Of a stretch of 25,605 nucleotides of DNA, positions 12,431 through 25,605 are shown one piece after another. A program made the translations under genes and the position numbers. The stretch is from a virus: IMG/VR virus record IMGVR_UViG_3300022074_000337, positions 1-25,605 of that record; one strand, 5' to 3'. A model generated the notes under the pieces. That model was not told the DNA's origin. It worked only from the letters and a program-made list of their open reading frames with translations, and ran no database searches. Each line of letters opens with the position of its first letter. Position 1 is the first letter of the stretch.

Positions 12431-12710
12431 TAAAGACGGTGACGGAATTGTAACCGACGAAGAATTTGAAATGGAACAGAAATTAGTTATGCTTGAAAAT
12501 GAAGATAAAAAACAAGATGCACAAAGAAACATGGCATGGTTTGCTTTAGGCGGAATGCTATTATATCCTGCATTTGTAATTATTGCTACATTGTTTGGAT
12601 TAGATAAAGCTGCCAAGATCTTAGGTGATATGGCCGCAGTTTATTTTGTATCAGTTGCAGCAATCGTAGCAGCATTTTATGGCAAAGAGGCATTAGCCAA
12701 GAAAAAATAA
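12381..12710 (+). CDS. EF-hand membrane protein
   Basis: A 109-residue protein with one canonical EF-hand calcium loop at residues 17-28 (D17, D19, D21, I23 as backbone, T25, E28; sequence DKDGDGIVTDEE), then an acidic helix and two membrane helices (about 51-71 and 84-101) ending in KKK. The EF-hand would sit on one side of the inner membrane and bind Ca2+. GGAG lies upstream of the ATG. It is the last gene before the glycan island. The role is unknown; calcium-gated lysis timing, envelope sensing or adsorption-related functions are possible. Confidence 0.72.
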   Translation: MNAQKQLQPGSKYAAFDKDGDGIVTDEEFEMEQKLVMLENEDKKQDAQRNMAWFALGGMLLYPAFVIIATLFGLDKAAKILGDMAAVYFVSVAAIVAAFYGKEALAKKK

Positions 12711-12725
12711 ACAAAAAGTTTTGTT
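12710..12725. repeat. 7-bp inverted repeat just before the glycan island
   Basis: AACAAAA (12710-12716) and TTTTGTT (12719-12725) form a perfect inverted repeat separated by 2 nt, ending at the base before the ATG of the first glycosyltransferase. That start has no Shine-Dalgarno sequence. As RNA it is a weak hairpin (stem of six with a 4-nt loop), AT-rich, so chance is possible. Confidence 0.4.
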
Positions 12726-13499
12726 ATGAAAAATTTAGTATTTCAATATTATATACCTTATGAATCTTTTGACGCTGATATGGGTGGTGTTAGAATGCCG
12801 GAATGGGCACACGCCGGATCACGTTCAGCTCAGGCATATGCAGATTTCTGTGGTGCCGAGTATGAACTATCACATGAAAGATTCTTCCAAGAGCTCGATC
12901 CAAGACTCGATTCAATTAAAATATTATTCGATAAGAAGTATGATCAATACGATCATATACTGTCTATAGATCTTGACATGTTAATACATGCAGATGTAGA
13001 TGAAAACATATTCGAGTATCCTATCAAAGATGTTGCGATGGTGCATGAACGGCATGTACATACTGGTGGACCTGCAAGATGGTTGTCTAATGTTATGTAC
13101 AAACCCTTATGGCAAAGAGGAATTATAGCTTATGGTAAACATTTATGGGGTGATGACTGGATGTTTCCAAAGAGCGCAATATATCCTGATGAAAAATTTA
13201 GATATTTAAATGGAGGTCTACAACTTTGGTCAAAAGAAGGTAGGCTTAAAGCACGTGAACATTTTACTTCGGTAGATGATTATGTACTACATACAAGATA
13301 TACAGAACAGATGTATATTAATTTACAATTATCACAACCAATATTTGAAGTAACTGAAATAGATACGCAGTGGAATAGAATGCCTTATCAATGGCATGCT
13401 AATAAACCTGACGGAAAGATTAATCACTTCTTGGCAAGAACTAAATTTGATATGCCAAGATTAGAACATACGGAGTTAAGTATATGGCAAAGTTCTTAG
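12726..13499 (+). CDS. GT-A glycosyltransferase
   Basis: A 257-residue protein starting MKNLVFQYYIPYE, the same opening (a strand, then QxW/Y) as the other glycosyltransferases at 15056, 16870 and 18327. The DLD motif at 82-84 (ILSIDLDMLIHAD) is the metal and sugar-nucleotide site of GT-A enzymes, and FRYLNGGLQLW holds the conserved NGG of the acceptor side. It transfers a sugar from an NDP-sugar, substrate unknown. It opens the glycan island and overlaps the next gene by 16 nt. No ribosome site is visible before its ATG. Confidence 0.8.
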   Translation: MKNLVFQYYIPYESFDADMGGVRMPEWAHAGSRSAQAYADFCGAEYELSHERFFQELDPRLDSIKILFDKKYDQYDHILSIDLDMLIHADVDENIFEYPIKDVAMVHERHVHTGGPARWLSNVMYKPLWQRGIIAYGKHLWGDDWMFPKSAIYPDEKFRYLNGGLQLWSKEGRLKAREHFTSVDDYVLHTRYTEQMYINLQLSQPIFEVTEIDTQWNRMPYQWHANKPDGKINHFLARTKFDMPRLEHTELSIWQSS

Positions 13500-14089
13500 A
13501 GATAGCAGCAGAAAATCCAAGAGGATTAACGTGGGAAGTTATGAATCTAGCTACACATTCAGGTGTAGCAAAAGGAGATGCAACCAATTTGCCACTACCT
13601 TACAGCGATAATCAATTCTTTGGTGTATATTCAGAACACTTTATAGAACATGTATACAAATACCAAGGAATTAATTTCTTTAAAGATGTAATGAGAATAT
13701 TAAAACCCGGCGGTGTGGTAAGAACAGTATGGCCTCCGTATGAGTTTGTAGATTTATTAGTAAGTGGAGAAGAGCTTACACCTGATCAACAAATGTTTGT
13801 AGAACATTATTATAATTTTTACATTGTAAAAGAAAAGTTTTCACCACCCGGCAACTCGCATAGATCAAAGCGAGAGCAGTGTGCTTTAGGTTTACTATAT
13901 CAAAAAGGTCAACATCTTTACATTTGGTCAAAGATTGAAATGATGAATATGTTAAAGGAATTAGGTTATACTAATGTTAAGCTTATGAATTATCAAGATA
14001 GTTCAGTGGTTGATTTTAAAAACATAGATACGCCAGGAAAAATACGTGCATTACACAGCGCAGTTGTTGAGGCAAGTAAACCGTGGTAA
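13484..14089 (+). CDS. Class I SAM methyltransferase-like protein, motif I degenerate
   Basis: A 201-residue protein of the Methyltransf_11 / COG4627 type: GDATNLPLPYSDNQFFGVYSEHFIEH is the acidic-to-HxxEH region (31-56), followed by VMRILKPGGVVRTVWP (69-84). The glycine-rich motif I (normally LxLGCG) is missing or replaced by FLEIAAENPRG, so SAM binding is uncertain. The long C-terminal part HSRSKREQCALG and YLKELGYTNVKLM-like region resembles sugar or peptide methyltransferases. It overlaps both neighbours. O-methylation of a glycan is the likely role; an inactive relative is the alternative. Confidence 0.7.
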   Translation: MAKFLEIAAENPRGLTWEVMNLATHSGVAKGDATNLPLPYSDNQFFGVYSEHFIEHVYKYQGINFFKDVMRILKPGGVVRTVWPPYEFVDLLVSGEELTPDQQMFVEHYYNFYIVKEKFSPPGNSHRSKREQCALGLLYQKGQHLYIWSKIEMMNMLKELGYTNVKLMNYQDSSVVDFKNIDTPGKIRALHSAVVEASKPW

Positions 14090-14355
14090 TAGTAATTAAC
14101 TATGATGGAAGGCAACAGATGTTTCATCATTATTGGTTGCCTCTTATATACAAACATCAAGAATGTACATTCTTTGTTGAAGATAAAACAGAGAAGATGA
14201 TATATCCATCTGACATACCAAATTTAAATGTTACTAAGCATGTTGACAGAGATAAATTAAAGAATCCAGTAATGTATTGTGATATAGATAAAGTTCCAAC
14301 ATATAGAACTATGATTGATTTTAAACATAATGTTTTTTATGAGGTGCCACTGTGA
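14083..14355 (+). CDS. Hypothetical protein, 90 aa, glycan island
   Basis: Starts at GTG 14083 with only GGCAAG upstream, and ends overlapping the next GTG (GTGA). The protein begins MVIVINYDGRQQMFHHYWLPLIY and continues with alternating strands; FFVEDKTEKMIYPSD and YCDIDKVPTYRTMIDF follow. It contains a DID at about 68-70, as in GT-A enzymes, but is far too short to be a full glycosyltransferase. It may be a fragment or an accessory protein. Not recognised. Confidence 0.5.
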   Translation: MVIVINYDGRQQMFHHYWLPLIYKHQECTFFVEDKTEKMIYPSDIPNLNVTKHVDRDKLKNPVMYCDIDKVPTYRTMIDFKHNVFYEVPL

Positions 14356-15071
14356 GTTTTTGGAACAGGCGTGTACAAGAAATTAGCACTGAATACGATA
14401 GAGGCGAATTAAATTTATCGCAAGGCATGATTCAAAAAACAATAGGTTATACACATCCTAAATACACTGCAAAGTTATATGAAAAATATCAAAACGATAA
14501 AGGCTTAGATTTAATTAAAGATCCTGACTTTGGTAATCCACAAAGATTAAAAGAATACTCTCAGTCAACTTTAAGATGTTTAGATTATGCTCGTTATTTA
14601 GAAAGCTTTGGCATAACCATTGGGAAAATAGATTCTATTACTGACTTTGGAAGCGGTTATGGTAATTTTTGCCGAATATGGAAGCTTTGGAACCAACAAG
14701 TTCTATATTATAATTGTGATTTACCTGAAATGCATGAGATACAAAAGCATTATATTGAAAATACAGTAGATAATTATGAAGGTATTGAATACATAACTCA
14801 TAAAGAATTAAATAAGGTTAAGAAGAAAAACAAATCATTATTCATTGCAGCGTATAGTTTAACTGAATGTTCTTTAGATGTTAGAACTGAGGTAGAGCCG
14901 TATCTTGCTATGTATGATTATATCCTTATAATACATAATGCAAAGTTTGACGGTATCGACAACGTTGACTACATTAAAGACCTTCAAAAAAGAAGGTTAA
15001 GTGGTTATGAATGTAAACATGAAATAGATGAAGACAGTGCAAAGTGGTGGTTAATATGCAAAAGAATTTAA
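14352..15071 (+). CDS. SAM-dependent methyltransferase, sugar O-methyltransferase-like
   Basis: A 239-residue protein with a good motif I, ITDFGSGYGNF (96-106), then YNCDLPEM (motif II, acidic) and SLFIAAYSLTEC (motif IV region). A helical N-terminal 90 residues precedes the Rossmann part, as in putative sugar O-methyltransferases. It would methylate a glycan hydroxyl with SAM. The GTG start overlaps the upstream stop, and the gene overlaps the following one by 16 nt. The acceptor is unknown. Confidence 0.72.
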   Translation: MSFWNRRVQEISTEYDRGELNLSQGMIQKTIGYTHPKYTAKLYEKYQNDKGLDLIKDPDFGNPQRLKEYSQSTLRCLDYARYLESFGITIGKIDSITDFGSGYGNFCRIWKLWNQQVLYYNCDLPEMHEIQKHYIENTVDNYEGIEYITHKELNKVKKKNKSLFIAAYSLTECSLDVRTEVEPYLAMYDYILIIHNAKFDGIDNVDYIKDLQKRRLSGYECKHEIDEDSAKWWLICKRI

Positions 15072-15865
15072 TATATCAAGTATGGGACGGTGACTTAAGA
15101 CCGGGCTGTACGTACAGTGAAAAGTTATTTCGTTACTATGCAAATATGATTGGTGCTGATTACAGATTAGATCTTAATCCAAACATTGCAAGTAAACATG
15201 TAAAAGGCAAAGATGGAATGTACTTTGAATGGTTGAATCCAATATTAGATGATTCTTTCTTAGAATATGATAAAGTGTTGGTAGTAGATCTTGACATATT
15301 TCCAGTAGATAAATTGAAAAATAATATATTTAATGAATCTGTTAAAGACTTTGGTATATGTACTGAACCATTTCAAGGTAAGTATAGAGCGAGTACTAAT
15401 GTCCCTGGAAACATAAACATGAAGAACGATGAGAGATGGGCTTCTGAAGTTAAAAAGCTTTATGGTTCTACAATGCCTAGAGATGTCAATGGCTATTTAA
15501 AAGTATATAATGCCGGTATGGTAATGTTTACTAAAAAAGGTATGATGTTGGCAAGAGAAAAGTTTGCGCCATTTCAAGAATATTTAGACGCTATGCAAAA
15601 AACAGGTCTTAGTAGATTTTATACAGTAGATCAAAATTATTTTCATGCAATGATGGTTACACATAGTGATTACACAGAAATGCAAAACGGCTGGAATAGT
15701 TATATACATTATACGCGTGGACCACTTGGCATGATAGATCCAATACATGATAGTAGAAATGCATTTACAAAATTTGTACATGTACAATTAAGTGGTGCAG
15801 ATTACTTCCATACGGATAAGTTATACAATATAGTAAATTTACCAAGATCAAAATGGAATCTTTAA
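15056..15865 (+). CDS. GT-A glycosyltransferase (paralogue of the one at 16870)
   Basis: I chose ATG 15056 because MQKNLIYQVWDGDLRPG aligns with MKNIIYQYWKGDLKPG of the paralogue at 16870; a GTG at 15044 would add four residues. The 269 residues include DLD at 78-80 (VLVVDLDIFPV), GICTEPFQGKYRASTNV, YNAGMVMFTKKGM and NGWNSYIHYTR, all mirrored in the other copy. It is a likely metal-dependent NDP-sugar transferase. It sits directly before glf with no gap, so it may use UDP-galactofuranose, but this is inference. Confidence 0.82.
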   Translation: MQKNLIYQVWDGDLRPGCTYSEKLFRYYANMIGADYRLDLNPNIASKHVKGKDGMYFEWLNPILDDSFLEYDKVLVVDLDIFPVDKLKNNIFNESVKDFGICTEPFQGKYRASTNVPGNINMKNDERWASEVKKLYGSTMPRDVNGYLKVYNAGMVMFTKKGMMLAREKFAPFQEYLDAMQKTGLSRFYTVDQNYFHAMMVTHSDYTEMQNGWNSYIHYTRGPLGMIDPIHDSRNAFTKFVHVQLSGADYFHTDKLYNIVNLPRSKWNL

Positions 15866-16873
15866 ATGTCTAAAGTATTAGTAGTAGGTGCCGGTTTTTC
15901 CGGATCTGTGGTGGCACATGAATTAAATAAGGCTGGACACCAAGTGACGGTTATCGATGAGAGAGATCACATCGGTGGTAATGCTTATGACTACACTAAT
16001 GAATATGGTATACGTATACACAAATATGGTCCACATATATTTCATACCAACAATGAAAAAGTATATAAATGGATTACACAGTTTGGTGAATGGACACCAT
16101 ATAAGCATAAAGCAAAAGCAATATTAAGTAATGGTCAATATGTTTCTTTTCCAATCAATAAAGAAGCTAAAGACATTGTTGGTGAAGAAAATATTGTAGA
16201 CACGTTCTTTCGTCCATACACATATAAGATGTGGGGTAAAACAATTGAAGAACTCGATCCATCAGTACTTAAACGAGTCTCTGTAAAAGATGACTACAAC
16301 GAATACTACTTTCCAGATGATGCATACCAAATACTACCTAACGAAGGATACACAAAAGTCTTTGAAGAAATATTAAAAGGTATCGATGTAAAATTAAATG
16401 TAAAATTTAAACATCACATGGAATCATACTACGATCATACTTTTAACTCAATGGCAATTGATGAATATTTTGATTACAAATATGGTGAGTTGCCATATAG
16501 GTCAATAAAGTTTCATCATACAACTTTACCAACACCAAAGGTTCTTCCTACGGCCTGTGTTAATATGACACATGAAGGTCCATACACTAGAATGACAGAA
16601 TGGAAAAACTTTCCAGTTCACGGTGTAAACGATCAGTATACAACTATTACATATGAAGAACCATGTGACTATAAAACAAACGACTATGAAAGGTATTATC
16701 CGGTCAAAGATATCGATGGTAGTAACAGGATCATATATAATTCATATAAACAATTAATTAAAGACAATGTAACGTTTATAGGAAGATGTGGAATGTATGT
16801 TTACGTTGATATGCATCAAGCTATAAACTCGGCATTAGTAGCGGCTAATAAATTTCTGGAGAAAAACAAATGA
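15866..16873 (+). CDS. glf: UDP-galactopyranose mutase
   Basis: Glf converts UDP-galactopyranose to UDP-galactofuranose using reduced FAD. The 335-residue protein has GAGFSG (8-13) as FAD site, DERDHIGGNAYD (31-42), HKYGPHIFHT (52-61), RPYTYKMWGKTIEEL, RVSVKDDYNEYYF, GYTKVF and the C-terminal GRCGMYVYVDMHQAINSAL (FAD-binding, active-site Arg/Tyr). The length is slightly below E. coli Glf (367). It lies between two paralogous glycosyltransferases. This makes galactofuranose a probable building block of the island's product. Stop overlaps the next start (ATGA). Confidence 0.96.
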   Translation: MSKVLVVGAGFSGSVVAHELNKAGHQVTVIDERDHIGGNAYDYTNEYGIRIHKYGPHIFHTNNEKVYKWITQFGEWTPYKHKAKAILSNGQYVSFPINKEAKDIVGEENIVDTFFRPYTYKMWGKTIEELDPSVLKRVSVKDDYNEYYFPDDAYQILPNEGYTKVFEEILKGIDVKLNVKFKHHMESYYDHTFNSMAIDEYFDYKYGELPYRSIKFHHTTLPTPKVLPTACVNMTHEGPYTRMTEWKNFPVHGVNDQYTTITYEEPCDYKTNDYERYYPVKDIDGSNRIIYNSYKQLIKDNVTFIGRCGMYVYVDMHQAINSALVAANKFLEKNK

Positions 16874-17763
16874 AAAATATAATATATCAATATTGGAAAG
16901 GTGATTTAAAACCCGGTGTTGTTTACAGTACAGAACTTATTAAAAAGTATGCCGAAAAGATTGGAGCAGAATACAGATTCGATCATAATAAAACAATTGC
17001 TGGTAAAGTTTGTTCGATACCGATTTATTATGAACCAGCTAATCCTTTAGTTGATCCATACTTTGATGATTATGATAATGTTGCTTTAATCGATATTGAT
17101 GTGTTTCCAGTAGAGAACTTAAATGAAAATTTATTTGATCAACTCGATGGTGAAGATGCAGGTATATGCACTGAACCAGATCAACCTTTCTTTAGAAGCA
17201 CTATGAACGTTTCCGATATAACATACGAAAATGATATGAGATGGGCTCGATTTCTTAAAGATAAATGGAATGTTAAATATTCATATGATGAGAAAGATAG
17301 ACCTATGGTTTATAACACAGGTGTAGTAGTTATATCTAAAGAAGGTTTAAAGAAGATGAAAACTCAATGGCCGTCATTTCAAGAATATGTTAACTCTATA
17401 CAGAGTCTACGCTTAGCTAGATTTTACTACTTATTTCAAGATTACTTTTCTGCATTTATCCACATGGATGGATTTAAATTTAAAAAGTTACATAACGGCT
17501 GGAACTCTTATATGCATAAATTAAGATCTCATCCTAATGCTACAATAAACGATACACGTACAGAAGATACTAAATTAGTTCATATTATGTTTAGAACCGC
17601 CGATGATTGGCCAAGAGAAACCTTATGGGCAATAACTAACTCACCAATGGAAGAGTGGAGAAAATTAGTGCCGGTCTGGAAAGAGTGGCCAAATGATCCA
17701 GAAAAAACAATAAAGGCAGAGTCCAGTTTAGTATCATCTATTAAAAATATACAGGAGAATTGA
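16870..17763 (+). CDS. GT-A glycosyltransferase (paralogue of the one at 15056)
   Basis: A 297-residue protein with IIYQYWKGDLKPG (4-16), DID at 75-77 (VALIDIDVFPV), GICTEPDQPFFRSTMNV, VYNTGVVVISKEGL, ARFYYLFQDYF and NGWNSYMHKLR, each with a counterpart in the gene at 15056. The two copies flank glf. The C-terminal tail of about 30 residues is unique. The start overlaps the glf stop (ATGA), and ATACAGGAG near the end serves the next gene. It is probably a galactofuranosyl- or related transferase, substrate unproven. Confidence 0.82.
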   Translation: MKNIIYQYWKGDLKPGVVYSTELIKKYAEKIGAEYRFDHNKTIAGKVCSIPIYYEPANPLVDPYFDDYDNVALIDIDVFPVENLNENLFDQLDGEDAGICTEPDQPFFRSTMNVSDITYENDMRWARFLKDKWNVKYSYDEKDRPMVYNTGVVVISKEGLKKMKTQWPSFQEYVNSIQSLRLARFYYLFQDYFSAFIHMDGFKFKKLHNGWNSYMHKLRSHPNATINDTRTEDTKLVHIMFRTADDWPRETLWAITNSPMEEWRKLVPVWKEWPNDPEKTIKAESSLVSSIKNIQEN

Positions 17764-17764
17764 T

Positions 17765-18334
17765 ATGCTTACAGCTGATTTAAATCATGTAAAAACCGTA
17801 GAAGAATTTTACAAATCGATAAGAACTCAACAAGAAGTAGCACATGGTAAAGCGTACTGTGATCAGCATGATGCTATTACAAAATATATGAAAGAGTGTA
17901 ACTCATATAAAGAATTAGGTACACACCAAGGTGGCACAGCCGCATGTGCTATGTTATCAAAACCAAAATATATTGAATTAATTGACATTAATCATTACAA
18001 GTATAGGTGGAAACTACAACCTCTTGCTGAAACTTATTGTAAAGAACATGGTATTGAGCTGGTAGTAAAAGATGCAGATTCCTCATCACTAGCATCACTA
18101 GGTGCACCGGTTGATATGATGTTAATAGATTCATTACATAAACCTGATCACATGAAAAAAGAATTAGATTTACATGGTGTTTCAGTTAATAAGTACATCA
18201 TTGCACATGACACTTATGTAAATCAAGCACTTCATCAATGTTTAGAAAATTGGTGTAATGAAAATCGTGCTTGGAAAGTACACGAAAGAGGAACCGTAAA
18301 CGTAGGATATACGGTGTTAAAGAAAAATGCGTAA
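17765..18334 (+). CDS. Class I SAM methyltransferase (Methyltransf_24-like)
   Basis: A 189-residue protein with motif I YKELGTHQGGTAACA (48-62), motif II IELIDIN (70-76), and LIDSLHKPDHMKKEL (120-134), which matches the IDxxHxxxxxxxDL signature of cephalosporin-hydroxylase / catechol-type O-methyltransferases. YIIAHDTYVN follows as the acidic-His metal-binding region. The gene overlaps the next by 8 nt; AGGAG precedes the ATG. It is probably a glycan O-methyltransferase. Confidence 0.77.
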   Translation: MLTADLNHVKTVEEFYKSIRTQQEVAHGKAYCDQHDAITKYMKECNSYKELGTHQGGTAACAMLSKPKYIELIDINHYKYRWKLQPLAETYCKEHGIELVVKDADSSSLASLGAPVDMMLIDSLHKPDHMKKELDLHGVSVNKYIIAHDTYVNQALHQCLENWCNENRAWKVHERGTVNVGYTVLKKNA

Positions 18335-19028
18335 TATAATACTACAACACTTTGATGGTGAAATGAGACCACTTGATTATGAATCAATGTGGAACATCAT
18401 GGATTATGCAGACATGGTCTATGCTGATTATAAATTAGTGTTAGGTAAACCATTTAGAGAAAATTTAACAAACGCCTGTCAAAAGGTTCATATGATACAT
18501 GAAGAGTTCGATGAATGGGATAACGTGTTGATGTTAGATATTGATATGTTTAGACCTGAAGAAATGAGGTTAAATATATTTGACCAACCCGGTATCGGCT
18601 TATATGCAGATGTTCAACAAAATCTACATAGAAGATTAATACAATGGTACCCTATGCTAGGGAGTATGGACACACCATATTGGGGCGGCGCCATATACAA
18701 AATGGATAGGCTTACAAGACAAACACTTCGTAAACAACTTGGTGGTAATGAAGGTTGGATGCAGAATTTCAATAAACCTTACAATTATGAAGATGAAGGT
18801 ATTATGCATGTCTTGGCAATGAGGTCAGGTATGAAATTTGAACAACCGTATCTTGATCGTAAATGGTGCCAGTGCTCGTTCTTACCTAATCCTGAAAGAG
18901 CAGGCTTTATTCATGTAAGAACTAAAGTAACTCCTCAAGGACCTAAAAGAGAAAAAATACTTAATTGGAAAGAGTTGGTAGACAAAAAAATATTAGGTGC
19001 TTATAAACCACACGATAGTGATGCTTAA
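18327..19028 (+). CDS. GT-A glycosyltransferase
   Basis: A 233-residue protein opening MRNIILQHFDGEMRP, the same N-terminal layout as the other GT-A genes here. DID at 71-73 (VLMLDIDMFRP), GLYADVQQNLH, and PYWGGAIYKMDR (the acceptor loop) follow, with YEDEGIMHVLA and DRKWCQCSFLP near the end. It is a putative NDP-sugar transferase. It overlaps its neighbours by 8 nt on each side. Substrate unknown. Confidence 0.78.
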   Translation: MRNIILQHFDGEMRPLDYESMWNIMDYADMVYADYKLVLGKPFRENLTNACQKVHMIHEEFDEWDNVLMLDIDMFRPEEMRLNIFDQPGIGLYADVQQNLHRRLIQWYPMLGSMDTPYWGGAIYKMDRLTRQTLRKQLGGNEGWMQNFNKPYNYEDEGIMHVLAMRSGMKFEQPYLDRKWCQCSFLPNPERAGFIHVRTKVTPQGPKREKILNWKELVDKKILGAYKPHDSDA

Positions 19029-19434
19029 CGTATTATTCGAAAGGTATAAATCTAAAAGATTGAAGTATCATTTATATTATGAGAAAGAATTCTTTAACCG
19101 TAGATTTGAACCACTCATGATATTACAAGTCGGCATAGAACCGAGCTTACAGGTTTGGCAAAGATACTTTACTAGATCTCGAATATATTGCATAGACAGG
19201 TTTGTACATACAGATCCTAAAAATATTTCTTACTTAGATGAAGAAAGAATACACTGGTCAAGATGTGATGTAAATAATAAAAAGCAACTTAATCATGTCA
19301 TGATAGATGTGTGGAAAAAACCACGGTTTAACATTATAATAGATAATATTAGTGATCATAAAACAATGAGACATTACGGTATCGATAAGTACTATAAAGA
19401 GGTTAACGATGAAGTCTTTTGCCATAGTTGTTGA
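19021..19434 (+). CDS. C-terminally shortened methyltransferase-like protein
   Basis: Taken from ATG 19021 (137 residues); an in-frame upstream start at 18997 would lie inside the preceding gene. MILQVGIEPSLQVWQRYFTRSRIYCIDRF looks like the motif I-II region of sugar O-methyltransferases (LEVGxxxGxSLxxWxxYFPxAxIxGIDxF) with the glycines mostly lost, and FNIIIDNISDH resembles the IDDGSH motif. The usual end (GGxYxIED) is absent, because the frame stops inside the following gene. It is probably a decayed or minimal methyltransferase, possibly inactive. Confidence 0.5.
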   Translation: MLNVLFERYKSKRLKYHLYYEKEFFNRRFEPLMILQVGIEPSLQVWQRYFTRSRIYCIDRFVHTDPKNISYLDEERIHWSRCDVNNKKQLNHVMIDVWKKPRFNIIIDNISDHKTMRHYGIDKYYKEVNDEVFCHSC

Positions 19435-20107
19435 AGGCAATAAAATATCAGAATCAGGTTATCAAGAACTTAAAGAAAGTTACGATAAGTATGGTTATGA
19501 AGACGAATTGCAAATACATCCTGCTATACCTACTGACAAAGTAGTTGGCTATTGTGGAGGCAATGGTTTAGTTTGGAACTATCCTTGGGTAGGTAGTCAT
19601 GTAGATTTAAAGACAGGCCTTATCAAATCTGCATATCCTACAGAAGATAAAAATAAAAGAATTTCTTGCTTTTTAAGCCATTGGTATTTGTGGCATAAGT
19701 GCAAGAACTTAGATGAAATGATTATGGTATTTGAACATGATTCAAGAATTATAAAGAAGCTTCCAGCAGACAGTACATTTCAAAAATCAAAGTTTGATAT
19801 TATAGGTATAAATGATCCATCAATGGCAACAAGAAAATCTAAATTATATCATGATATGATACTTAAAAACACTGAGTTCTTTCAACCGGTTCCACGTATA
19901 GATGAGTTCAATATACCACAAGGATTAGCAGGTAATTCAGCATATGTCATTAAACCTGCAGGTGCAATTAAAATGATAGACTTAGCACAAGAACACGGCA
20001 TGTGGCCAAATGATGCATTAATGTGTTATCAACTTATCGAAACACTTGGAGTAACACGTAACTTTTATACAAGAGTTCAAGGATTGAGGTCAACAACAAC
20101 ACTATGA
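19409..20107 (+). CDS. GT25-like glycosyltransferase (tandem copy 1)
   Basis: A 232-residue protein resembling family 25 LPS transferases: CFLSHWYLWHKC (87-98) is the SH motif and MVFEHDSRI (106-114) stands where the family has EDD. AGNSAYVIKPAGAIKMI is the conserved YxxxxxGAxxxL segment. The neighbour at 20104 shares all three, so these are tandem paralogues. EHD in place of EDD is a change at the presumed metal/donor site. It overlaps both flanking genes. The likely role is adding hexose to a surface glycan or glycoprotein. Confidence 0.77.
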   Translation: MKSFAIVVEGNKISESGYQELKESYDKYGYEDELQIHPAIPTDKVVGYCGGNGLVWNYPWVGSHVDLKTGLIKSAYPTEDKNKRISCFLSHWYLWHKCKNLDEMIMVFEHDSRIIKKLPADSTFQKSKFDIIGINDPSMATRKSKLYHDMILKNTEFFQPVPRIDEFNIPQGLAGNSAYVIKPAGAIKMIDLAQEHGMWPNDALMCYQLIETLGVTRNFYTRVQGLRSTTTL

Positions 20108-20745
20108 AGATGTATGTAATAACAATAATGGATAACGAAAGGTCAGTGCAGGTTGCTGACAGGTGTATACAAAGTGGATTAGTATTCGGTAATAAAATAG
20201 AAAAACATCCAGCATTTTCTCCACAAAATTGTAATGTATATGAAGAACTTGAAAAGCATGGATACGATAAAGCTGGATTTATAGAGAAGTACAGTAGACC
20301 AGAGAATTGTATTGCAGGATTCTTAAGTCACCACAGCTTATGGGAAAAATGCATTGAAATTGGAGAGCCTATAGTCATATTTGAACACGATGCTGTGATA
20401 ACAAATGACATACCACTACTACATATGTTTGACATATTGAGTATAGGTAAACCATCTTACGGTAAATTCAATACTCCATCATTCTTAGGTTATGGTGCAT
20501 TAGTATCTAAACCATATTTCCCTGGTGCACATGCATATCGCATTACACCGAAAGGTGCGGCTGCATTGATAAATGAAGCTCAATTTAGTGCAGGTCCTAC
20601 AGACGTGTATATACATACAAGTAAATTTACATTAGGTGAATATTATCCTTGGCCAGTAGAAGCAAAAGATAGTTTTACTACAATACAAAGAAAAGAAGGT
20701 TGCTACGCAAAACATAATTATGGCGAAACATACGACATCATATGA
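20104..20745 (+). CDS. GT25-like glycosyltransferase (tandem copy 2)
   Basis: A 213-residue paralogue of the preceding gene: MYVITIMDNERSVQVADRC at the N-terminus, AGFLSHHSLWEKC (71-83), VIFEHDAVI (91-99) and GAHAYRITPKGAAALI. It again has EHD rather than EDD. It shares a 4-nt ATGA overlap with copy 1 and overlaps the next gene by 26 nt. The two probably arose by duplication and act on successive steps or on different acceptors. Confidence 0.77.
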   Translation: MKMYVITIMDNERSVQVADRCIQSGLVFGNKIEKHPAFSPQNCNVYEELEKHGYDKAGFIEKYSRPENCIAGFLSHHSLWEKCIEIGEPIVIFEHDAVITNDIPLLHMFDILSIGKPSYGKFNTPSFLGYGALVSKPYFPGAHAYRITPKGAAALINEAQFSAGPTDVYIHTSKFTLGEYYPWPVEAKDSFTTIQRKEGCYAKHNYGETYDII

Positions 20746-21376
20746 TGAGGCTTTTTTAACCGGTTGTGATAGTTCACAGGAGTGGATGCTTACTTGGTTT
20801 TTAAAGAATTATAAAAAGAACTCAACTAAACCTCTAGTATTTGCAAACTTTGGAGTAACAGATGAGTGTCTTGATATCATGAGAGCCAACTGTCATGCCA
20901 TCATGGATATGACAACCACTGAAGAAAAAGGCTGGTTTAAAAAACCATTGTCAATAATAAAATGTCCGGCATATAAAACAGTATGGTTAGACACCGATTG
21001 TGAAATACGTATGAACATAGACGGCATATTTAATTTACTTCAACCAAATATACTTAATATGGTAGAAGATGAACCATGGTCAATGCGAGCAGGTCAAAAG
21101 TGGCACAACTCAGGTGTTGTCGGTGTCATAGATAAACCTATGATATTAAATCAATGGGCTCTTGAAATTAGAAAGAATGGTGGCCAACAAGGAGACCAAG
21201 AAGTACTTCATTCTATGTTGACACCAATAACAAAGATTAGCGCAATACACGACTTGCCTAATGAGTATAATGTATTAAGAATACAAACGGAAGTTGATAA
21301 AACTTATGATGGACCTATACGTATAATGCATTGGACTGGTTACAAAGGCAAAAATATTATTAAGGAATTGATATGA
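20720..21376 (+). CDS. GT-A glycosyltransferase
   Basis: A 218-residue protein with the DTD metal site at 91-93 (TVWLDTDCEIRMN) and WHNSGVVGVIDKPMI as the acceptor loop, then QQGDQEVLHSML and a closing RIMHWTGYKG. This is the nucleotide-diphospho-sugar transferase layout. It is unlike the other GT-A copies in the N-terminal 60 residues. The start at 20720 overlaps copy 2 of the GT25-like pair, and the stop overlaps the next ATG by 4 nt. Substrate unknown. Confidence 0.78.
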   Translation: MAKHTTSYDEAFLTGCDSSQEWMLTWFLKNYKKNSTKPLVFANFGVTDECLDIMRANCHAIMDMTTTEEKGWFKKPLSIIKCPAYKTVWLDTDCEIRMNIDGIFNLLQPNILNMVEDEPWSMRAGQKWHNSGVVGVIDKPMILNQWALEIRKNGGQQGDQEVLHSMLTPITKISAIHDLPNEYNVLRIQTEVDKTYDGPIRIMHWTGYKGKNIIKELI

Positions 21377-21996
21377 AGAGAATAGTACATATTGTTGGTA
21401 ATGGCGATCATGCTGGATATTACTGGAATGAACCAAGACAAGGCATGAAATTAACGTGTAATGTTCCACCATTTACAATACCTAATGTTTATGCTACTAT
21501 AATGGTGGACTTCAAAATGATGAAAGCTATTCATGATGGTTCAGTAGGTTTTACTAGTGAATGGATAGTTGGAATGAGACCAAAGATATATATGGGAAAC
21601 AATCCATCATTCCATATTAAGATGTCTCCTTACATCAAAGAATTCTATACAGAACTACCTAAGTATGTAGCAAACTACACAGACTTTAACTGCGGTCACA
21701 TGGCAGTTCACTACGCAGCAAACAAAGTAAAAGCTGAAGAAATACACATGTATGGATTCGATTCTTTGTTTGATTTTAATCTTCGAAGCTACACAGATTT
21801 GTTTCTAAATTCAGACAGAGGAGATGCTAATAATATCAGACTTGCAAATAATTGGCGACCAGTATGGGAGAATATGTTTAAGGAGTTTCCAAAGACAGAT
21901 TTCGTTCTACACCATAAGCATAATGCAATAAAAGTTAATATTAGTGACAATGTTAAGATAGTAACATACGATAAGATGGCTAAACCACCCGAATAA
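21373..21996 (+). CDS. Putative transferase, GT42/DUF115-like
   Basis: A 207-residue protein with an N-terminal HIVGNGDHAG that resembles the VxGNGPS nucleotide site of GT42 sialyltransferases and DUF115 proteins, then TIMVDFKMMKAI and a later HMAVHYAANKVKAEEIHMYGFDSLFD, similar to the A..A...G..EIyl.G.D segment of those families. Similarity is by motif only. It closes the glycan island, and a T8 run and the promoter at 22013 follow directly. If the reading is right it would use a nucleotide-activated acidic sugar. Confidence 0.5.
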   Translation: MKRIVHIVGNGDHAGYYWNEPRQGMKLTCNVPPFTIPNVYATIMVDFKMMKAIHDGSVGFTSEWIVGMRPKIYMGNNPSFHIKMSPYIKEFYTELPKYVANYTDFNCGHMAVHYAANKVKAEEIHMYGFDSLFDFNLRSYTDLFLNSDRGDANNIRLANNWRPVWENMFKEFPKTDFVLHHKHNAIKVNISDNVKIVTYDKMAKPPE

Positions 21997-25149: not shown

Positions 25150-25376
25150 TGGAAATATTCTCAGGATTTATTTTGTTAATGTTTATGAGCGGAGATGTTA
25201 AACCTACAGAGTTTACACCTCGTGACTCGATGATGGAATGTTTGAAAGTGAAGAGATACATTAAAAGAAAACAAGGACCGGGCGGACCAAGATGGGTATG
25301 TCAAAAAGGCAAACTCGAGTTCGAAATAAAAAACGGCGAAAAACATCCACTTAAAATAATAGAATTGAATAAATAG
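25149..25376 (+). CDS. Small exported protein with two cysteines
   Basis: A 75-residue protein with a hydrophobic N-terminus (IFSGFILLMFM), then a basic domain with SMMECLKVKRYIKRK and GGPRWVCQKGK, two cysteines about 20 residues apart. The layout recalls the protein at 11270-11533. The ATG overlaps the previous TAA by one base. It could be an exported disulfide protein in the same late operon. Function unknown. Confidence 0.58.
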   Translation: MEIFSGFILLMFMSGDVKPTEFTPRDSMMECLKVKRYIKRKQGPGGPRWVCQKGKLEFEIKNGEKHPLKIIELNK

Positions 25377-25388
25377 TAATACATTAAA

Positions 25389-25437
25389 CGTTCACCCGTA
25401 AGGGCGGAAGTAGGCAGTCGCTGAAGGAACGCACCTA
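25389..25437 (+). promoter_or_regulatory. Glutamine-riboswitch-like RNA (glnA / Downstream-peptide class)
   Basis: The sequence carries the core of the glnA/Downstream-peptide RNA class, which binds L-glutamine. P1 pairs CGTTC (25389-25393) with GAACG (25427-25431). A hairpin pairs CCC (25395-25397) with GGG (25402-25404) around GTAA. The conserved GGAAGTAGG run is at 25406-25414. CAG (25415-25417) pairs with CTG (25421-25423), and GAAGGAACGC follows. TAGG (25411-25414) can pair with CCTA (25434-25437) as the family's pseudoknot. Only part of this could be chance. It precedes a short basic peptide, as known for the Downstream-peptide motif. Confidence 0.88.
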
Positions 25438-25461
25438 ACCATTAACGAGGGAGGGTGACTA

Positions 25462-25563
25462 ATGACTTACAGACCATATTCTTGGAAGAGGTTTTGTCAG
25501 GCACGTGATCGCGCTAGAGTTCATAGAATTCTAAACTATCGCATGCCACTGAGAGCAGCCTAA
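25462..25563 (+). CDS. 33-residue strongly basic peptide under riboswitch control
   Basis: ATG 25462 follows GGGAGG (25449-25455 region) at normal spacing; the TAA is at 25561-25563. The peptide MTYRPYSWKRFCQARDRARV... ends RMPLRAA; it has eight Arg and one Lys against one Asp. Short ORFs of this kind define the Downstream-peptide motif. In cyanobacteria a glutamine riboswitch also controls gifB, whose small basic product (IF17) inactivates glutamine synthetase through Arg residues; the HRILNYR...LRAA end recalls such factors, but I cannot verify an alignment. Codon use is more GC-rich than in its neighbours. Confidence 0.78.
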   Translation: MTYRPYSWKRFCQARDRARVHRILNYRMPLRAA

Positions 25564-25564
25564 T

Positions 25565-25580
25565 ACACTTTAGTGTTTTT
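25565..25580 (+). terminator. Weak terminator-like hairpin after the basic peptide
   Basis: ACAC (25565-25568), loop TTTA and GTGT (25573-25576) followed by TTTT form a short hairpin with a U-tract just after the peptide stop. The 4-bp stem is weak. It would make the riboswitch and peptide a small separate transcript end. Confidence 0.35.
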
Positions 25581-25584
25581 ACCG

Positions 25585-25602
25585 ATGCGCTTAGGTACGC
25601 AT
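25585..25602. repeat. Inverted repeat at the window edge
   Basis: ATGCG (25585-25589) and CGCAT (25598-25602) can pair around an 8-nt loop. The window ends three bases later, so it may be part of a larger terminator or structured RNA that is cut off. Nothing more can be said. Confidence 0.35.
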
Positions 25603-25605
25603 ACA

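Follow-up and report, generated by a model that had tools for sequence, protein, structure and literature searches.

Glutamine-I riboswitches (the glnA class; Rfam RF01739) fold as a three-way junction that lacks a pseudoknot, with the ligand touching the terminal base pair of P1 (G59:C1) and a long-range pair capping that helix (PMC6698751). Glutamine riboswitches were described in a 2018 review as restricted to cyanobacteria, where elements of the glutamine-I class govern gifB, the gene for the inactivating factor IF17 (PMC6316151); both the gifB element and glutamine-II riboswitches have been reported to act as ON switches (PMC6316151, PMC6698751). Glutamine-II, or Downstream-peptide, RNAs (RF01704) recognize the same ligand through a pseudoknot fold and precede short ORFs of 17-100 aa, which were reported in 2010 (PMC2864571); tandem glutamine switches were reported in 2022 (PMC9481103). 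Phage-borne glutamine-I switches have likewise already been published: one lies within the ssrA (tmRNA) region of the OM43 myophage Melnitz (PMC9004378), and in the cyanophage S-CREM1 glnA was noted as a motif only (PMC9964418).

The stretch of DNA analyzed here (the window) spans the whole of a 25,605-base virus record, itself a 25.6-kb fragment, with T4-like gene content that includes a DnaB-type helicase (gp41), a UvsX-like recombinase, PhoH, ThyX and a DNA alpha-glucosyltransferase. The glucosyltransferase-like gene (PF11440) occupies positions 1-1242, and a run of ORFs at approximately 12700-21400 resembles, by eye, glycosyltransferases, methyltransferases and nucleotide-sugar enzymes. 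The sole Rfam match within the window, at positions 25387-25435 on the + strand, is to RF01739; the covariance-model alignment spans the whole model (positions 1-53/53) and scores 55.3 bits against a gathering threshold of 35 (E 7.8e-10). RF01704, by comparison, scores 11.1 bits (E 2.5) against a cut-off of 33, which assigns the aptamer to the glnA class. An earlier, sequence-only reading had proposed a phage glutamine riboswitch of a combined glnA/Downstream-peptide type; the riboswitch and the first half of this label are borne out, and the second half is not.

Inspection of the covariance-model alignment places the 5' strand of P1 (CGTTC, 25389-25393, +) opposite GAACG at 25427-25431, a P2 hairpin (CCC-GTAA-GGG) at 25395-25404 (+), and a P3 hairpin (GGC-AGTC-GCT) at 25413-25422 (+). 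P1, the P2 hairpin, and the GGAAGTAGG and GAAGGAACGC elements all lie where the sequence-only reading had put them. The TAGG/CCTA pseudoknot that it had also described is ruled out by covariation in P3: across 233 distinct leaders, the two bases 3' of GGAAGTA pair with the bases 5' of GAAGG in 232/233 and 233/233 cases, with GC, AT, GT, CG and TA pairs all represented. Both pseudoknot strings are present in the window, but the GG falls within P3, and the CCTA belongs to an anti-Shine-Dalgarno (anti-SD) segment that covaries with the Shine-Dalgarno (SD) element. Together, the modeled structure and the P3 covariation describe a P1/P2/P3 three-way junction with no pseudoknot, the fold that separates this locus from glutamine-II elements, with which it has in common the ligand and a short downstream ORF. 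Judged by its sequence, the window RNA is thus a genuine glutamine-sensing switch of the glutamine-I class and is predicted to bind L-glutamine. It shares every conserved element of the glutamine-I aptamer, and differs from described members in residing in a T4-like phage, in forming a single-gene unit, in following a late-promoter-like box, and in preceding an unnamed peptide family.

That family, which we term F1, is represented in the window by a 33-aa basic peptide (MTYRPYSWKRFCQARDRARVHRILNYRMPLRAA; ORF at 25462-25563, +) containing eight arginines, one lysine and one aspartate. A strict form of the aptamer motif occurs in 120 IMG/VR stretches, each of which continues, 18-28 nt on, into an SD-preceded short ORF. 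A DNA-pattern search identified 42 viral contigs that carry an F1 start behind the same SD as the window, and across all loci the family has 55 instances, which represent 35 distinct peptides. Computed for the first 27 codons, pN/pS is 0.33, and third codon positions vary most; the other reading frames are closed, and frame-breaking changes are absent among the 35 distinct peptides. The earlier expectation of a conserved, very basic short peptide behind the switch, its frame kept in related phages, is therefore upheld, and these measures of coding constraint identify the 33-aa ORF as a genuine gene. AlphaFold2 models the peptide as a single helix (residues 8-31; mean pLDDT 78). In several phage copies, homology to the cellular relatives described below reaches as far as a C-terminal CxCK motif, which the window copy has lost.

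Searches for relatives among annotated families and named phages were negative. F1 had no Pfam match up to E 1, the family is not represented in PHROGs, and the peptide had no significant match among 50,697 phage records; tblastn against named phages returned only Gordonia phage matches at E values of at least 3, as expected by chance, and the DNA at 25340-25605 matched no named phage. Neither Melnitz nor S-CREM1, which resemble the window in carrying a glutamine-I aptamer, has been described as encoding an F1-type peptide. A scan of the window found no intrinsic terminator 3' of the ORF. A ACACTTTAGTGTTTTT sequence 3' of the ORF overlaps the apparent end of a convergent frame, and in relatives the DNA corresponding to 25560-25605 looks, by eye, like the terminus of a convergent gene, so that the switch unit may be the last element of a rightward block of genes.

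How aptamer and ORF are connected is indicated by the segment between them. Beginning at the first base after P1, an anti-SD sequence, CACCU (25432-25436, +), pairs in the MFE structure with the GGGUG portion (25453-25457) of an SD element, GGAGGGTG (25450-25457, +). This extended SD is present in 116/121 riboswitch leaders and in 0/873 of the remaining start regions on those contigs, which sets it apart from the SD that these phages ordinarily use. Among phages, the tail after P1 and the SD change together, occurring as CACCU/GGGUG, CAUCU/AGAUG, CACUC/GAGUG, CAAUCU/AGAUUG and GCCUC/GAGGC. When 58 leaders balanced over 21 tail classes were compared with permuted tails, mean contiguous pairing was 3.74 as opposed to 2.64 (sd 0.14), the highest mean in 2000 permutations being 3.14; at least five anti-SD pairs can form in 130/190 distinct leaders. 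The aptamer accordingly lies in the 5' UTR of a conserved ORF with a covarying anti-SD and SD, a location in keeping with the glutamine-I class, and cyanobacterial genes of the IF7/IF17 family (L481, L482) share this translational layout. The covariation, which appears to be new, points to a specific mechanism for glutamine-I riboswitches. A different leader is seen in gammaproteobacterial loci (L124, L131, L136, L140, L172 and similar), where CACCAAACT after P1 is complementary to a downstream AGTTTGGTG.

The window's MFE structure holds P1, P2, P3 and the anti-SD helix simultaneously, and its stability is unremarkable relative to shuffled sequences (z -0.47). Holding the first C and A after P1 unpaired raised mean SD accessibility only from 0.56 to 0.61, no clear effect, and a simple two-state switch in secondary structure was rejected as a model. 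Because plain secondary-structure modeling shows no clear switch, any coupling between ligand binding and the SD must be tertiary. The long-range pair that caps P1 in the glutamine-I structure, which we take to be G23-C60, presumably uses the C directly 3' of P1, the same C that opens the anti-SD helix.

Upstream, 13 nt 5' of P1, the window carries a AATAAATA box (25368-25375, +) that differs by one mismatch from TATAAATA and may serve as the -10-like element of a T4-type late promoter. Four close relatives (L002, L035, L077, L093) have TATAAATA itself at this position, and either TATAAATA or CTAAATA lies 5' of 112/163 distinct single phage aptamers, as against 5.1 after shuffling. The usual spacing in phage loci is 6-9 nt before P1, shorter than the 13 nt seen here. 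It is reasonable to infer that late transcription begins just 5' of the aptamer.

To locate the switch and its peptide outside viruses, a strict aptamer pattern was run against 84,980 bacterial and archaeal genomes. F1 peptides were found in four alphaproteobacterial records, L142, L148 (labelled SAR116), L157 and L158, in each of which the F1 gene follows two tandem glutamine-I aptamers and long, terminator-like inverted repeats lie 3' of the ORF. The neighbors of the L157 gene (short-chain and zinc dehydrogenases, a transporter and a ribosome-associated protein) are of metabolic type with no phage genes among them, indicating that this locus is chromosomal. As far as sequence similarity reveals, chromosomal genes of marine Alphaproteobacteria are the only cellular F1 relatives found. 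A second family, F2 (MNLWTQYCRRQAR...), stands behind tandem glutamine aptamers on chromosomes of Burkholderiales/Betaproteobacteria (L125, L130, L135, L149, L150, L159 and L164, in genomes G005-G011); a GlnE domain went undetected in all seven of these genomes, which may be incomplete. Absence of GlnE was rejected as a general explanation, a GlnE-type domain being present in each of the four F1 genomes.

These relatives also bear on the host, for which the sequence-only reading had assumed a cyanobacterial setting. Against 386 cyanobacterial genomes, F1 gave four matches (E 0.004-0.009) where approximately four are expected by chance, and thus no convincing homolog. Neither psbA nor psbD occurs in 16 F1 phage contigs (~660 kb in total), and both Synechococcus phage controls carry psbA/psbD. 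With homologs on alphaproteobacterial chromosomes, this pattern tells against that setting, and we favor a proteobacterial host for the F1 phage. A cyanobacterial host is possible: gp41 shares up to 67% identity with that of Synechococcus phages, and its best matches include two named Kyanoviridae that infect Synechococcus. Among named phages, only Phage C48C1, for which no host is recorded, is nearer in gp41 than the Synechococcus phages.

Proteobacterial members of this aptamer class precede genes of nitrogen assimilation: glutamine synthetase (L489 and, in SAR86, L171), ammonium transporters (Amt; L490), the glutamate synthase large subunit (GltB; L205, with a CACUU/AAGUG anti-SD) and a GltD-like protein (L172). 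Since these are nitrogen genes, position and switch would place F1 in a glutamine-controlled nitrogen regulon. Outside cyanobacteria (L489, L490, L492, L483-L487, L205, L171, L172), glutamine-I elements also accompany circularly permuted ATP-grasp genes, and one alphaproteobacterial genome (G244) holds eight aptamers.

Taken as a whole, the locus is best read, with moderate confidence, as a glutamine switch by which a T4-like phage controls translation of a single gene, the ON direction, timing, host and nitrogen role being the interpretive parts of this reading. A short transcript would begin just 5' of the aptamer late in infection. Without glutamine, CACCU directly 3' of P1 would pair with GGGUG of the SD and so prevent translation; binding of glutamine at the terminus of P1, the location of the first C of the anti-SD, would break the anti-SD helix. 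By taking this C from the anti-SD, ligand binding would free the SD, so that the 33-residue basic, helical peptide would be translated when glutamine is high. The peptide would then most likely act, at high glutamine, on the network through which a proteobacterial host assimilates nitrogen. F1 is probably a host-type peptide that the phage carries and produces late, when glutamine is plentiful, and the earlier suggestion that it tunes host nitrogen flow as glutamine rises is plausible once transferred to a proteobacterial host. A further proposal, which we offer tentatively, is that F1 and F2 are proteobacterial counterparts of the inactivating factors, restraining GS or glutamate synthase directly in streamlined marine Alpha- and Betaproteobacteria, and that phages have taken them over to direct nitrogen flow in late infection. 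The locus ties a phage switch to a peptide family with chromosomal, tandem-switch-controlled homologs in marine Alphaproteobacteria. It offers a compact (~190 nt) unit for asking whether phages steer host nitrogen metabolism via glutamine sensing, and bears on whether nitrogen assimilation in heterotrophic marine bacteria is under the control of peptides.

Alternatively, the aptamer could act as a resource sensor, with the peptide serving phage timing, virion production or lysis as opposed to host nitrogen metabolism. The late-promoter-like box is in line with such a role, as are the unrelated small proteins found behind the same switch in related phages and the proposal by the Melnitz authors that a late rise in glutamine could trigger lysis (PMC9004378). 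We nevertheless regard this role as doubtful, given that it fails to explain chromosomal F1 genes with tandem aptamers and without phage neighbors.

The polarity of the switch could also be reversed, such that a glutamine-stabilized P1 stacks on the adjoining anti-SD helix and locks the SD shut. P1 and the anti-SD helix are indeed directly adjacent and coexist in the predicted MFE structure, but the glutamine-II and gifB elements have been reported as ON switches (PMC6316151, PMC6698751), and the anti-SD starts at the base after G59, beside the ligand and the long-range capping pair of P1 (PMC6698751). Because its start adjoins both, the anti-SD and the bound aptamer probably compete, making an OFF switch unlikely.

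The sequence-only reading had itself cast the peptide as a cyanophage's minimal mimic of the cyanobacterial inactivating factors IF7 and IF17 (the products of gifA and gifB), an idea to which we now assign little probability. F1 is like these factors in being a small basic protein presumably made under nitrogen-rich conditions, gifB itself being under a glutamine switch (PMC6316151), and its short, basic, helical form resembles the IF7 core; the profile score between F1 and IF7, 8.5, exceeds those of 30 column-shuffled controls (maximum 5.6), and the gp41 similarity to Synechococcus phages would suit a cyanophage. The factors nonetheless differ from F1 in cellular lineage and, with no detectable similarity, in sequence: profile comparison with hhalign gives a probability of 0.36% (E 0.095), the IF7 HMM scores no F1 member better than E 0.5, and the Pfam search up to E 1 did not detect the DUF4278 (YRG) N-terminus of IF17. 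Because the IF7 similarity is not significant, we do not claim F1 as a member of that family. The cyanobacterial genomes, the psbA-free contigs and the alphaproteobacterial homologs described above weigh further against mimicry. The IF7 query retrieved cyanobacterial homologs at up to 71% identity; against the PDB it gave only chance matches, leaving no solved IF complex for comparison. That the functional product is instead the RNA, as an sRNA or decoy aptamer with an incidental ORF, is very improbable: the aptamer is more conserved than the peptide's C-terminus, but pN/pS is 0.33, the frame is intact in 35 distinct peptides, and a riboswitch-specific SD is present.

A literature search, with most subscription journals outside its coverage, returned no description of F1, its alphaproteobacterial homologs or the anti-SD covariation, all of which appear to be new. 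Other families accompany the same switch. F3 (L004, L005, L008 and ~57 other distinct members) is a 65-aa phage protein under riboswitch control; it has distant matches among Pelagibacter phages, belongs with a PHROG that has no assigned function, and scores marginally against the IF7 HMM (E 0.0013). In the F0 cluster (L220, L234, L239 and others), a phage glutamine riboswitch precedes proteins of 33-60 aa whose YRG repeats resemble the N-terminal moiety of IF17. Finally, six phage contigs (L038, L074, L080, L099, L113, L116) carry a riboswitch-controlled 51-aa ORF with an F2-like N-terminus and a C-terminus matching PqqA, the PQQ precursor peptide (Pfam PF08042, E 1.3e-10); these contigs may derive from phages of PQQ-using hosts.
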